Assembly (NCBI GenBank): GCA_017434885.1
Contig: JAFSGE010000056.1
Span: 186,001 to 250,000, forward strand
Origin: Lachnospiraceae bacterium
Lineage (GTDB): Bacteria; Bacillota; Clostridia; Lachnospirales; Lachnospiraceae
Length of the DNA stretch: 64,000 bases
Reading direction: 5' to 3'
Under the pieces are notes generated by a model that had not been told where the DNA came from, searched no databases, and worked only from the letters and a program-made list of their open reading frames with translations. Below are positions 3,578-56,705 of this stretch, in pieces (position 1 is the first letter of the stretch; the number at the start of each line of letters is the position of its first letter). The position numbers were made by a program, and so were the translations under genes.

Positions 3578-3617
3578 CAAAAATCCCACTACCTACATTT
3601 TCTGTAAATAGTGGGAT
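3578..3617 (-). terminator. Intrinsic terminator of ppdK
   Basis: Perfect 9-bp stem ATCCCACTA / TAGTGGGAT (3609-3617 and 3583-3591) followed on the minus strand by TTTTT. It lies 62 nt downstream of the ppdK stop. Confidence 0.85.
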
Positions 3618-3678
3618 GAAAATCTATATTCTTTTACTTCCTCAAAGTCCGGCTATACACTAAATAAATAGCATTCAC

Positions 3679-6300
3679 CTACTTATTGCTAATAGCTGCC
3701 TGTGCAGCCGCGAGGCGGGCAATAGGCACTCTAAACGGTGAACAGGATACATAGCTCAGTCCTACCTTATGGCAGAATTCTACGGAAGAAGGATCTCCGC
3801 CGTGTTCGCCACAGATACCAAGCTTGATATCAGGTCTGGTCGCTCTACCCTTTTCTGCTGCCATCTGTACCAACTGGCCTACACCGCTCTGATCTAATCT
3901 TGCAAAAGGATCAGATTCATAAATCTTATTCTTGTAGTAATCTCCAAGGAACTTGCCTGCATCATCTCTGGAGAAACCAAATGTCATCTGTGTAAGGTCA
4001 TTGGTTCCGAAGGAGAAGAACTCAGCTTCTTCTGCGATTTCATTTGCAAGCAGTGCTGCTCTGGGAATTTCAATCATAGTACCTACATGATACTTAATGT
4101 CGGAATTCTTTTCTTTCTTTACAAGCTCTGCTGTTTCTACTACAACGTCCTTAACAAACTTAAGCTCTTTCTTCTCTCCTACAAGAGGAATCATAATTTC
4201 GGGAACAATATCAAAGCCCTTTTCTTCTCTCACTTCGATAGCTGCTTCCATTACGGCTCTTGTCTGCATTCTTGCGATTTCGGGATAAGTAACTGCAAGA
4301 CGGCATCCTCTGTGACCCATCATAGGGTTAAATTCATGAAGGGAATCACAAATTGCCTGCACATCCTCTGCGGTCATCATCATCTTAACTGCAAGGTCGT
4401 CGATGTCTGCCTGTTCTGTAGGAACAAATTCATGTAACGGGGGATCTAAGAAACGGATTGTTACCGGCTTACCTTCCATTACTTCATAAATTCCCTTGAA
4501 GTCTCCCTTCTGGAAAGGAATCAGTTCATTTAATGCTTTTTCTCTCTCCTGCATGGTTCTTGCAAGAATCATCTGACGAATCTTGGGAATTCTGTCAGGT
4601 TCAAAGAACATATGCTCTGTACGGCAAAGTCCGATACCCTCTGCACCATACTTAACAGCATTTGCTGCATCAGCCGGGTTATCTGCGTTGGTACGAACCT
4701 TAAGGGTACGGAAGGAATCTGCCCAAGCCATAATTCTTTCAAAGTTACCGCTGATAGATGCCTCTACCGTCTTGATGTCACCATCATAAATCTTACCGGT
4801 AGAACCGTCTAAGGAAATGTAATCACCTTCATGGTATACATGTCCGCCAAGTTCGAATACCTTTTCTTCTTCGTTAATGGCAATTTCACCACAACCGGAT
4901 ACACAACAGGTTCCCATACCACGTGCAACTACTGCTGCGTGAGAGGTCATACCGCCTCTTACGGTAAGGATACCTTCTGCTGCGTGCATACCTTCGATAT
5001 CTTCGGGTGATGTTTCCAGACGAACAAGAATAACTCTCTCGCCTTTTTCATGTGCTTCCTTTGCTTCCTGTGCAGTGAAGTAAACCTTACCTGCTGCTGC
5101 ACCGGGTGAAGCGGGAAGTGCCTGTCCGATTACAGTACCTGCTTTCAGTGCTGCCGCATCGAATGTAGGATGTAATAACTGGTCTAATGATTTAGCTTCA
5201 ATACGAAGAACTGCTTCTTCGGGAGTAATCTTTCCTTCATCTACTAAATCACATGCAATCTGAAGTGCTGCGGGAGCAGTTCTCTTGCCGTTTCTGGTCT
5301 GTAAGAAGAACAGCTTGCCGTCTTCAATGGTAAATTCCATATCCTGCATGTCACGGTAATGGTCTTCCAGTCTGTTTGCAATCTGGATAAACTGCGCATA
5401 ACATTCAGGAAGGTCTTCTTCCAGTCTGGTAATTGGCTGAGGTGTTCTGATACCTGCTACAACGTCTTCACCCTGTGCATTAATCAGGTATTCACCGTAG
5501 ATACCCTTTTCACCTGTGGAAGGATTACGTGTAAATGCAACACCGGTACCGGAGGTATTACCCATATTACCGAATACCATTGCCTGTACGTTTACCGCGG
5601 TTCCCCAATCACCGGGAATGTCATTCATACGTCTGTAAACAATAGCTCTTTCATTGTCCCAGGAACGGAATACTGCTTTCACAGCTTCCATAAGCTGCTC
5701 CTTAGGATCCTGCGGGAAATCACTTCCCATTTTATCTTTATAAATCGCTTTAAACTTATTGATAACATCCTTTAAATCATCTGCTGTCAAATCCGTATCA
5801 AATTTAACACCTTTTGATTCCTTAATGTCATCCAGAATTCTTTCAAAATAAGATTTGGGAATCTCCATAACTACGTCGGAGAACATCTGAATAAAACGAC
5901 GATATGAGTCGTAAGCAAATCTGGGGTTGCCTGTCTTGGCTGCAAAGCCTTCAACCGCTACATCTGTAAGACCCAGATTCAAAATGGTATCCATCATACC
6001 GGGCATGGATGCTCTGGCACCGGAACGCACGGAAACCAAAAGAGGATTTTCGGTATCACCGAATTTCTTACCCTGCTTTGCTTCCAAATCAGCAAGTGCC
6101 GCAAAAATCTGTTCCTTGATTTCATCAGAAATCGCTCTTCCCTGTGCATAGTAATCTGTACAGGCTTCTGTTGTTACCGTAAATCCCTGGGGAATCGGTA
6201 ATCCTAAATTTGTCATTTCGGCAAGGTTAGCGCCCTTTCCTCCTAAGAGGTTACGCATATCCGCACTACCTTCCTCAAAAGCATAAACCCATTTTGCCAT
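3679..6300 (-). CDS. ppdK: Pyruvate, phosphate dikinase
   Basis: A 873-residue enzyme of normal PPDK length that interconverts pyruvate, ATP and Pi with PEP, AMP and PPi in the cytoplasm; in anaerobic Clostridia it links PPi to glycolysis or supplies PEP. The N-terminal nucleotide-binding domain starts with LLGGKGANLAEM and has SVRSGARASMPGMMDT. The swivelling domain carries the catalytic His454 in GGMTSHAAVVARGMG, and the C-terminal PEP/pyruvate barrel shows GLCRTEHMF and GICGEHGGDP. All hallmark residues are present. GGGAGAGAG precedes the ATG. It is monocistronic, with a strong terminator after it. Confidence 0.97.
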   Translation of the reverse strand: MAKWVYAFEEGSADMRNLLGGKGANLAEMTNLGLPIPQGFTVTTEACTDYYAQGRAISDEIKEQIFAALADLEAKQGKKFGDTENPLLVSVRSGARASMPGMMDTILNLGLTDVAVEGFAAKTGNPRFAYDSYRRFIQMFSDVVMEIPKSYFERILDDIKESKGVKFDTDLTADDLKDVINKFKAIYKDKMGSDFPQDPKEQLMEAVKAVFRSWDNERAIVYRRMNDIPGDWGTAVNVQAMVFGNMGNTSGTGVAFTRNPSTGEKGIYGEYLINAQGEDVVAGIRTPQPITRLEEDLPECYAQFIQIANRLEDHYRDMQDMEFTIEDGKLFFLQTRNGKRTAPAALQIACDLVDEGKITPEEAVLRIEAKSLDQLLHPTFDAAALKAGTVIGQALPASPGAAAGKVYFTAQEAKEAHEKGERVILVRLETSPEDIEGMHAAEGILTVRGGMTSHAAVVARGMGTCCVSGCGEIAINEEEKVFELGGHVYHEGDYISLDGSTGKIYDGDIKTVEASISGNFERIMAWADSFRTLKVRTNADNPADAANAVKYGAEGIGLCRTEHMFFEPDRIPKIRQMILARTMQEREKALNELIPFQKGDFKGIYEVMEGKPVTIRFLDPPLHEFVPTEQADIDDLAVKMMMTAEDVQAICDSLHEFNPMMGHRGCRLAVTYPEIARMQTRAVMEAAIEVREEKGFDIVPEIMIPLVGEKKELKFVKDVVVETAELVKKEKNSDIKYHVGTMIEIPRAALLANEIAEEAEFFSFGTNDLTQMTFGFSRDDAGKFLGDYYKNKIYESDPFARLDQSGVGQLVQMAAEKGRATRPDIKLGICGEHGGDPSSVEFCHKVGLSYVSCSPFRVPIARLAAAQAAISNK

Positions 6301-55133: not shown

Positions 55134-55452
55134 ACCGAAATACAAAATGCCCATAGCAGACAGAGCCAAACAGTTTGTCCCTTTTGCAGCATTAAAAGGC
55201 CTTCCCGAAGCTTTGTCTGCCAAGGAACGCATCACCGTAGATAAAATAGAGCTTTCTCCCGAAATGGCAGAAGAACTGGACCGCAGGATGCATCTTTTAC
55301 AAAAGGGAAATATTGCCACCGTGGTATACTTTCATAAGGATGAATACATTAAAATAACCGGCATGGTGGCCAGAATTGACACCACCTGCCGGCTTCTGCA
55401 GATTGTAAATACCAAAATTCATTTTGATGATATTTATGAGGTTACTGTTTGA
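55123..55452 (+). CDS. YolD-like family protein
   Basis: A 109-residue protein starting with GTG at 55123, preceded by TAGGAGG. It shows the YolD pattern: DRAKQFVPFAALKGLPEAL, then ELDRRMHLLQKGNIATVVYF and INTKIHFDDIYEV-type ending. YolD proteins accompany Y-family polymerases in Firmicutes and are thought to modulate them. It overlaps the polymerase gene by 11 nt. Confidence 0.9.
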   Translation: MASKPKYKMPIADRAKQFVPFAALKGLPEALSAKERITVDKIELSPEMAEELDRRMHLLQKGNIATVVYFHKDEYIKITGMVARIDTTCRLLQIVNTKIHFDDIYEVTV

Positions 55453-55571
55453 TTTCTTTTTTCCTGCATCCTTACTGGATGCACCGCAATGATATGCCTG
55501 TACAACTGACTGCCTACCCGCTAATGAGATATTTGAATACGGGCATTATCCTTGCCTCTCTACGGACACTA

Positions 55572-55695
55572 CAAAAAAACTCCCACCGAAGTGGGAGCTA
55601 CCGATGGATCGCCAAATCCACCATAACTGAATCAATTTTACCGATCAATCGCCAAATTGACCACATCTGTAGATTAAATTCTACATTACATTATA
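55572..55695 (-). ncRNA. Candidate structured small RNA with 40-nt repeat units
   Basis: Minus strand. TATAAT at 55695-55690 would start a transcript near 55684. It would fold into hairpin C (TGTAGA/TCTACA, 55685-55668), hairpin A (TCAAT-TTGGCG-ATTGA, 55660-55645), hairpin B (TGGAT-TTGGCG-ATCCA, 55620-55605) and a terminator (AGCTCCCAC TTCG GTGGGAG then TTTTTTT, ending near 55572). A and B are exactly 40 nt apart, share loop TTGGCG and trailing ATCGGTA, and differ only by paired, compensating stem changes, strong internal evidence for RNA structure. Otherwise it is the 3' UTR and terminator of the MazF-like gene. No ORF of note occurs here. Not recognised as a known family. Confidence 0.55.
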
Positions 55696-55721
55696 TTATG
55701 TGAAAAGTCAACGAAAAATAT

Positions 55722-56255
55722 CTACTGTTTTTTCATATATTCTATTTTACCTTGCAATGACTTAATAGTGTTTTCCTTTGACTTAATTATACTAGATAAA
55801 CCAAGTGCATTCAAGAGTTTTCTATCTATTTCTTGTATCTCCTGCTTAAGCATGCAAATCTTACTATTTACTATTCTTTCTTTACCTACGGTCTTTATCT
55901 GCCCTAAATCCACGCTTCCAACTAAAAATTTATTCACACCATTCTCATCTTTATACGGGTAAGTTCCAGTAATCGGAATCTGAATATCCGGAATCGTCAA
56001 AGCACTAGATGAAATAATAGCGCATGTAAATACCGGTGACTTAAAATTATATGCATCCGATTGTAATACAACAACCGGACGAAGTTTATTTTCCTCACTA
56101 CCGACATTCTCCCCTAAATCCACAAAATAAACTTCTCCTCTCTTCACAGTCCATTTTCTCTGATACTGTTTACCTGTAGAATAATACAATTTTTGCGCAT
56201 TCCATCTACTGATACGTTGAGCCTTCGTCATTATTACTTTTTCTTCTGGTGTCAT
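55722..56255 (-). CDS. PemK/MazF-like toxin-family protein with extensions
   Basis: A 177-residue protein. A basic N-terminal extension (residues 1-35, KAQRISRWNAQKLYYSTGKQ) precedes the MazF/PemK core: VKRGEVYFVDLGENVGSEENKLRPVVVLQSD in parts, then PVFTCAIISS, VGSVDLGQIKTVGKERI. A charged C-terminal helix ends it. Core residues fit an mRNA interferase, but many long relatives are uncharacterised. GGAGG lies 9 nt before the ATG. The HTH gene 52 nt upstream is a possible antitoxin-like partner. Confidence 0.8.
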   Translation of the reverse strand: MTPEEKVIMTKAQRISRWNAQKLYYSTGKQYQRKWTVKRGEVYFVDLGENVGSEENKLRPVVVLQSDAYNFKSPVFTCAIISSSALTIPDIQIPITGTYPYKDENGVNKFLVGSVDLGQIKTVGKERIVNSKICMLKQEIQEIDRKLLNALGLSSIIKSKENTIKSLQGKIEYMKKQ

Positions 56256-56307
56256 ATTGCCAATACCTCCAATTTATGCCACAGCCTGTAGCACAATTAC
56301 TAATACA

Positions 56308-56535
56308 TTATTTGCCAGCCACGTTATCTTCCTTGTCATTTTCTCTTTTCCTATCAGCCAACTTCTCTATTTCAATCTTATATGCCATCAATCGCAAAAG
56401 ATACTGCGGAACCCTTCTGTTTCCCAATTCCCAATCTGTCTCCGTCATATATGGAATTTCAAAGTACTCACAAAACTCTTTCCGATTCATACCGGTACTT
56501 TCTCTTAATTTTCTCAATTCTTCTCTTGCTTCCAT
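56308..56535 (-). CDS. Small helix-turn-helix protein
   Basis: A 75-residue protein: ELRKLRESTGMNRKEFCEYFEIPYMTETDWELGNRRVP (in parts) is a Cro/XRE-like helix-turn-helix, although the recognition helix is shorter than usual, followed by a basic/acidic tail. AGAGGAGGG precedes the ATG. A perfect 17-bp dyad between its promoter and ribosome site suggests autoregulation. It may act as antitoxin or regulator for the following MazF-like gene. Confidence 0.75.
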   Translation of the reverse strand: MEAREELRKLRESTGMNRKEFCEYFEIPYMTETDWELGNRRVPQYLLRLMAYKIEIEKLADRKRENDKEDNVAGK

Positions 56536-56546
56536 AAGCCCTCCTC

Positions 56547-56595
56547 TTTATGCATTGCATAAATAAATTATATAATCCTTATTACCTACGGTCAA
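56547..56595 (-). promoter_or_regulatory. Promoter and operator of the HTH/MazF-like pair
   Basis: TTGACC (56595-56590) and TATAAT (56572-56567), 17-bp spacer, minus strand. TTTATGCA-T-TGCATAAA (56547-56563), perfect 8-bp arms, covers the start of transcription. A half copy TTTGCATAAA lies at 56603-56612, upstream of the -35. Confidence 0.75.
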
Positions 56596-56618
56596 TAACC
56601 TATTTGCATAAAAACAAT

Positions 56619-56656
56619 GAACCTCGGTCAAAATTGCTTTTTGAACCGAGGTTTAT
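56619..56656 (-). terminator. Terminator of the RlmCD-type gene
   Basis: AACCTCGGT and ACCGAGGTT with further inner pairing TCAAAA/TTTTGA region; T-rich after it. Lies 50 nt after the methyltransferase stop. Confidence 0.75.
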
Positions 56657-56705
56657 TCTAATTTTATAATTATATTCAATATGCATTAATCCTTCAAAAT
56701 AACAT

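Follow-up and report, generated by a model that had tools for sequence, protein, structure and literature searches.

A conserved two-hairpin RNA downstream of a long MazF-like toxin gene in Lachnospiraceae, with solitary copies on viral contigs: a candidate RNA antitoxin

Introduction

MazF toxins are textbook protein-neutralised ribonucleases. Toxins of the ToxN type, which share the MazF/Kid fold, are held by tandem short RNA repeats; in these type III systems (ToxIN, CptIN, TenpIN), the repeats lie upstream of the toxin gene, an intrinsic terminator is situated between the two, and one promoter is shared (PMC5086642). The toxin AbiF is bound and neutralised by RCd22 (abiF motif, RF03085), an RNA of ~100 nt with two hairpin motifs, a sigma-A promoter and a terminator, which adjoins its toxin gene (PMC12373285). 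Phage-borne mimics of the repeats of host defence RNAs have been described both as the pseudo-ToxI antitoxin-repeat mimics of phage PhiTE (PMC3475682) and as RNA anti-CRISPRs (PMC10651486). The Rfam pemK RNA motif (RF02913) is a conserved RNA near pemK-type genes.

Here we describe a locus in a 64,000-nt stretch of a Lachnospiraceae genome (hereafter, the window), in which a long MazF/PemK-like gene is followed by a structured RNA. As in type III systems, the toxin is related to the MazF/Kid fold, judging from its sequence match to PemK_toxin, and tandem short repeats (here 2 x 40-41 nt) are combined with an intrinsic terminator. In contrast to those systems, the RNA lies downstream of the toxin gene, behind a promoter-like sequence of its own, in 10 of the 10 toxin-linked loci, and it is composed of hairpins with conserved flanks rather than of a demonstrated pseudoknot. 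Because the defining gene order fails, membership of type III is not claimed. The RNA resembles RCd22 in length (~100 nt), in its two hairpin motifs, in its likely sigma-A promoter and terminator and in adjoining a toxin gene. It differs in the toxin family (PemK/MazF, not Abi_2/AbiF) and in position, the abiF RNA being located upstream of its gene, and the neutralisation described for RCd22 is only predicted here; the abiF covariance model RF03085 gave no match at E<=10 over 55400-55850. With the type II systems MazEF/PemIK, the locus shares a predicted MazF-family ribonuclease toxin, but this toxin is long, with N- and C-terminal extensions, it has a linked RNA, and no MazE-like antitoxin gene was recognised beside it. 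The pemK RNA motif, whose name invites confusion, has another sequence. Unlike the case of pseudo-ToxI and the RNA anti-CRISPRs, the host system is putative here, and solitary units are known only from IMG/VR contigs. Among the literature titles and abstract openings covered, which excluded subscription papers, neither a MazF toxin held by RNA nor this paired-hairpin RNA is described.

Results

The RNA element occupies the minus strand from 55669 to 55572 and consists of two hairpin units followed by an intrinsic terminator. An earlier note, made from the sequence alone, had described two units 40 nt apart on this strand, stems that differ at paired positions while the loop (TTGGCG) and the trailing ATCGGTA are shared, and behind them a terminator with a TTCG loop, and the analysis bears out each of these observations. 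The units form a direct repeat (55599-55629 and 55639-55669) of 31 nt with a period of 40 nt and 81% identity, and the two differing positions in the stems are compensated. Unit 1 (55639-55669, CAGATGTGG-TCAAT-TTGGCG-ATTGA-TCGGTA) scores 47.4 bits with model R2 (E 6.6e-10) and unit 2 (55599-55629, CAGTTATGG-TGGAT-TTGGCG-ATCCA-TCGGTA) scores 50.8 bits (E 8.6e-11), both being training rows of that model. A 9-nt linker (55630-55638) separates them, and the terminator (55572-55599) reads AGCTCCCAC-TTCG-GTGGGAGTT plus a T run, its hairpin being placed by scan at 55599-55578. The unit consensus runs CAG(U/A)URUGR, then a 7-bp stem whose sequence is free, a loop that is mostly YUGGCG, and YCGGYA.

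Minus-strand folding in the window gave a minimum free energy of -38.5 kcal/mol, which 0 of 200 shuffles equalled (shuffles: mean -25.65, sd 3.19; z -4.03), part of this excess stability being contributed by the terminator. In the minimum-energy structure, the first unit takes a fold other than the hairpin, and it is the homologs that settle it. Across 14 units, 99.0% of pair cells are formed, with 21 two-sided changes (0 of 500 shuffles); across 22 distinct units, 153 of the 154 base-pair cells are formed, with 42 two-sided changes (0 of 500 shuffles), and one pair is broken in unit 2 of locus L043. The 22 rows are distinct sequences picked from the loci, identical units (e.g., those of L139, L140, L144, L145, L151 and L159) being excluded. 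The covariation score of this set is 0.849 versus 0.372 when shuffled, and slid controls are at most 53.9% paired. The number of pairs with any two-sided change, five, is unexceptional (205 of 500 shuffles), and the shuffles ignore relatedness. Homologs with covariation, which the earlier note had proposed to look for, thus exist, the signal being strong over both the 14 and the 22 units. G-U pairs fill 20 of the 154 cells; the element therefore acts as an RNA on the minus strand. By eye, no consistent pairing partner for an H-type pseudoknot was found, the near-invariant flanks leaving covariation uninformative on this point.

Homologs were collected by pattern and model searches. A degenerate pattern scan of 84,980 species genomes returned 21 loci, of which nine were kept as members (L043, L045, L046, L048, L052, L054, L055, L057 and L058). 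The other 12 were dropped, having no MazF or HTH match and a missing CAG flank; three of them form all five tested pairs, three of the five being fixed by the pattern, and they reach at most 31.4 bits with R2 (E 1.1e-5 for 71 kb, after pattern selection) versus at least 35.3 for the kept units. Conservation of flanks and loop is partly by construction, as every pattern scan fixed the flanks, the scan of 84,980 genomes also part of the stem and the loop, and one viral scan also the loop; stems were left free in the order-genome scan and in the viral-contig pattern scans. R2, too, counts among its training rows 14 of the units it later finds. Model R1 matched 10 of 299 family genomes at E<=0.1, two of them clearly (G000 and G280), and the other eight were dropped as chance after reading. 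The pattern scan of 344 order genomes gave two (G000 and one that is apparently the genome of L055). R2 gave one among 391 class genomes (G000), a count that may miss members, with 18 of several hundred to ~1500 candidates scored in the genomes listed.

Two units at a period of 40-41 nt occur in 11 loci, and the same long MazF-like gene lies directly upstream of the RNA in 10 of these, the exception being L106. Counted over the window and the nine kept members, the gene is upstream in nine of ten; in the exception, L045, one unit and a terminator (1651-1681) stand directly past a SocA/Panacea gene. The identity of that gene comes from Pfam (E 8e-23) in L002, on the contig shared with L045 and in the same genus as the window, and a small unmatched gene is located upstream of it. 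The linkage extends to divergent toxins. In L054 and L055 (the latter from Acetivibrio ethanolgignens ACET-33324), MazF identity is 72-73% and the two units are 41 nt apart; in L094, found by a profile search of IMG/VR, MazF identity is 53% and the period is 40 nt. In L094, portal and terminase genes flank the toxin and RNA, which lie on the opposite strand; the stems are wholly different (CGAGT/GCTCG, CAGGC/GCCTG), the loop is TTCCAT, and the flanks are unchanged. A terminator-like hairpin was found by scan in the window and L094 and by eye in the other toxin-linked loci, L054/L055 and L094 having other terminator hairpins than the window. R2 applied to 35 loci around other MazF/PemK genes detected no unit at E<=1.

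In seven close loci, the units, the linker and the terminator are far less variable than the third codon positions of MazF. Two of the 31 columns of each unit vary, and none of the 9 linker columns or 21 terminator columns, compared with 47 of 177 at MazF third codon positions (68 of 534 over the gene), 64 of 228 in the HTH gene described below and 25 of 72 past the terminator. The stretch between MazF and the third hairpin (55721-55686) has one variable column of 36, with five more gapped by a duplication, and the third-hairpin stretch P0 (55685-55670) has 5 of 16.

The likely sigma-A promoter of the RNA (55678-55711, minus strand) was placed by a nine-locus alignment, with a -35 TTGACT at 55711-55706 and a -10 TAGAAT at 55683-55678. 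In relatives, TTGACT is followed after 17-18 nt by TAGAAT, TAAAAT or TATGAT, the promoter beginning at most 25 nt past the MazF stop codon; in the window, a TAATG duplication that the eight other aligned loci lack widens the spacing to 22. The duplication may weaken the window's own promoter, and TTGACT/TAGAAT is absent from the promoter-scan matches of the window. In L094, TTGACA-17-TAGACT overlaps the MazF stop codon; promoter-like sequence thus stands at or directly past this codon in 10 of 10 toxin-linked two-unit loci. This kept promoter favours a free-standing RNA, as the earlier note had suggested, over a mere 3' UTR of the MazF-like gene; the altered spacing in the window and L106, where the scan gave no minus-strand promoter ahead of the units, are caveats. 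The TATAAT (55695-55690) and the third hairpin (GTAGA-ATTTAA-TCTAC, 55684-55669) that the note had also listed are present, with doubtful roles. Seen by eye as a dyad (P0, TGTAGA...TCTACA, 55668-55685, minus strand), this hairpin overlaps the -10 and the probable start, and it may be untranscribed, since it overlaps the -10 of the promoter best placed in relatives (TTGACT-17-TAGAAT). Between groups, P0 changes in a paired manner, by eye (TGTATGA/TCATACA in L054/L055, CTGTAC/GTACAG in L094).

The MazF/PemK-like gene (55722-56255, minus strand) encodes a 177-aa protein that is extended at both its N and C termini and matches Pfam PemK_toxin (E 1.8e-18); residues 36-153 align with EndoA/MazF chains in a profile comparison (E 2.2e-14). 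For this protein, no Pfam match to the ToxN family was found at E<=0.001, all NCBIfam MazF matches were below cut-off, and PADLOC gave none. It is preceded by a small HTH-like gene (56308-56535, minus strand), which is the first of the cassette; its 75-aa product has PHROGs matches, some to regulators, and gave none in Pfam or NCBIfam at E<=0.001. This gene is present in the window and six close relatives and was not found in L054, L055 and L094. HTH gene, MazF-like gene and RNA form a cassette of ~1.18 kb (55506-56683) that has 89.8-91.6% nucleotide identity with six genomes of differing neighbourhoods; past the terminator, on the other strand, lie a YolD-like gene (just below the Pfam cut-off) and an ImpB-type gene. 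Pfam identified no antitoxin among five neighbouring ORFs searched in L054/L055 (ORFs of at least 50 aa) and L094 (at least 60 aa), and a recognised antitoxin gene was not found next to the toxin in these three divergent loci. As the HTH gene is absent from them too, the RNA is the sole constant partner seen. In L058, two adjacent cassettes (1165-2006 and 3611-4735) both open with near-copies of the HTH gene, one holding ORF6N and the other MazF and the RNA. A 46-nt remnant matching a gene of this ORF6N-type cassette lies just outside the window cassette (55456-55501).

The unit is also present on 15 viral contigs in which a long toxin was not found, twice on L106 and exactly once on each of the other 14 (L135, L137-L145, L147, L151, L158 and L159; eight distinct unit sequences). 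Applied to 16 whole records, which may be fragments, R2 detected exactly one unit per record in these 14, and two per record in L106 and L094. A long-toxin profile search of the same records matched three, namely L094, L106 (marginal, E 0.005) and the L137 record, where the match is a short MazF-like gene (139-aa ORF) ~58 kb from the unit. The underlying scans differed in what they fixed. With the loop fixed, 12 loci were returned, with all five tested pairs in 11 and two pairs in one. A second scan returned 21 loci, seven of them known; among the 14 new ones, five pairs form in four and none to four in 10. A third scan gave 12 loci, with two members recognised by eye, L103 (on the same contig as L094) and L106. 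The L106 contig, of 85 kb, holds its two units 41 nt apart and has no L094-type toxin; the scan found no minus-strand promoter upstream of the units, and the terminator was identified by eye only, its 10-nt loop exceeding what the scan allows. On the plus strand of L106 (8822-8850), a promoter that matches the consensus 12 of 12 stands beside the first unit and is directed away from it. The settings of single units vary: 11 nt past a ROOL RNA on the same strand (L142, 3928-4568), 12 nt past a tRNA (L144), 34 nt before a tRNA (L135, L139 and L145), past an amidase gene (L158) and before a FolD-like gene (L138). A blastn search of two viral-contig stretches against phages gave no match.

The earlier note had named a hit to a known Rfam family as evidence against a new RNA; no Rfam 15 family fits it at the sensitivity tested, and both this check and the one for homologs speak for the note's reading. 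At gathering score, the whole window contains three tRNAs and nothing at the RNA, and at E<=10 over 55400-55850 there are six matches, none at gathering score (best isrB, E 0.053, 23 bits versus 35). A blastn search of the RNA against plasmids gave no match, and against phages it gave 10 records covering the terminator end only (query 90-118).

Discussion

In the reading we prefer, the RNA would be an antitoxin of the MazF-family toxin, in a type III-like system in which the RNA stands past the toxin with its own promoter, and phages would carry solitary decoys; we consider the case for this reading evenly balanced. The locus would encode a MazF/PemK ribonuclease toxin and an RNA of ~100 nt with its own promoter and terminator, and the two protein-binding hairpins of this RNA would act as the antitoxin. 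The conserved single-stranded flanks (CAGUURUG, GGYA) and the loop of each unit may bind the toxin and block its RNA-cutting site; the stem would be a mere scaffold, and for that reason free to drift by paired changes. Single phage units would then serve as decoys, keeping the toxin silent while the phage infects. What the sequences establish is the RNA fold with its strand, its conservation, its linkage to this toxin and the copies on viral contigs in which a long toxin was not found; expression, toxin binding, neutralisation and the decoy role are predictions. Fixed flanks and loop, a free stem, two copies, one toxin subfamily and solitary viral units fit a toxin-binding, silencing RNA, and a protein-binding array, one of the options given in the earlier note, is the functional reading we prefer as well. 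We put forward more tentatively, as somewhat doubtful, the wider statement that a MazF-family toxin is held by a structured RNA and not by a protein, with the order reversed relative to type III, and that gut phages carry the solitary hairpin as an RNA counter-defence. If true, an RNA-held MazF would link the protein-held and RNA-held classes and offer a direct test of a switch of antitoxin type within one fold, and the solitary phage units would add an RNA counter-defence alongside pseudo-ToxI and the RNA anti-CRISPRs.

The covariation, the toxin linkage at 10 of 11 loci, which is kept down to 53% identity, and the lack of units beside 35 other MazF/PemK genes argue for an RNA antitoxin, as do its place as sole constant partner in the divergent loci, its constancy in the seven close loci and the precedents of ToxN-type toxins, AbiF with RCd22 and phage-borne antitoxin mimics. 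Several observations argue against it. Antitoxins usually precede the toxin gene, whereas here the RNA follows it. Viral contigs with a bare unit (15) outnumber toxin-pair loci (10), L045 has a unit and terminator without MazF, no minus-strand promoter was found by scan upstream of the L106 units, where a 12-of-12 promoter is directed the other way, the P0/-10 stretch is variable and the promoter spacing in the window altered, and the unit is rare. The window toxin has a serine at the position of the MazF catalytic threonine. Lastly, the HTH protein of the window and six close relatives could be the antitoxin, and in L055 an unmatched 128-aa ORF lies directly past the RNA.

The unit may have been a phage element first. 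The hairpin could at root be a phage RNA element, bound by a phage protein or serving processing or stability near tRNA and ROOL genes, with the cassette copy as a sensor or sponge through which phage binding triggers or tunes the toxin. This account draws support from the 15 viral contigs in which a long toxin was not found, 14 of them with a single unit, and from the placement beside ROOL RNA or tRNAs in five of them. The differing settings next to amidase and FolD-like genes speak against it, and the finding that contigs of 112-139 kb hold one unit only suits a decoy equally well; we regard the account as unlikely, though credible. It is quite unlikely, in our view, that the RNA is only the 3' end of the MazF-like mRNA, with hairpins and terminator protecting or ending the transcript. 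Such a role would agree with the placement immediately past the gene in 10 of the 11 loci that hold two units, and with the L045 unit and terminator past another gene, but the promoter is kept at or directly past the stop codon, L106 has a copy without a MazF gene upstream (though also without a clear promoter of its own), and an ordinary terminator has no need of conserved flanks, loop and 40-nt period.

A type II system, in which the HTH protein holds the toxin and the RNA acts otherwise, for example serving as an RNA toxin or sponge or regulating another gene, accounts for the presence of an HTH gene before the toxin in the window and in each of its six close relatives. The absence of this gene from L054, L055 and L094 and the near-copy that also opens the ORF6N cassette in L058 make this explanation very unlikely. 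The free variation of the stem sequence is also at odds with a type I-like antisense RNA acting on the toxin mRNA, which the adjoining position of the small RNA might suggest. When the two-unit part (72-73 nt, without terminator) was paired with the toxin mRNA in six loci, 11, 41, 72, 91, 96 and 97 of 100 shuffles were as strong; antisense pairing was rejected, the duplex being unexceptional in six of six loci, and we consider it barely credible. A DNA element, either a recombination site or a protein-binding repeat, would agree with a mobile cassette that has varied neighbours. It is highly improbable, as the G-U cells can pair only as RNA and only on one of the two strands, and the units are located inside the cassette and not at its ends.

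Two other RNAs near PemK-type genes were compared. The pemK motif RF02913 was rejected as the family of the window RNA, having matched neither the window nor the region around the RNA nor the genome of the window, while the model matches 73 of 245 class genomes; of 20 motif loci read, five have a PemK/MazF match, each downstream of the motif. On a B. velezensis plasmid (NZ_CP130609.1; L090, 3092-3345), another long PemK gene has behind it a promoter (TTGACA-17-TATACT) and a hairpin repeat of another kind, CAACAGAGCC...GGACATTA, in two copies that each precede a GC-rich hairpin. R2 does not match this RNA, which was rejected as a homolog and offers an analogy of layout only; this RNA may independently be the partner of a long PemK toxin.
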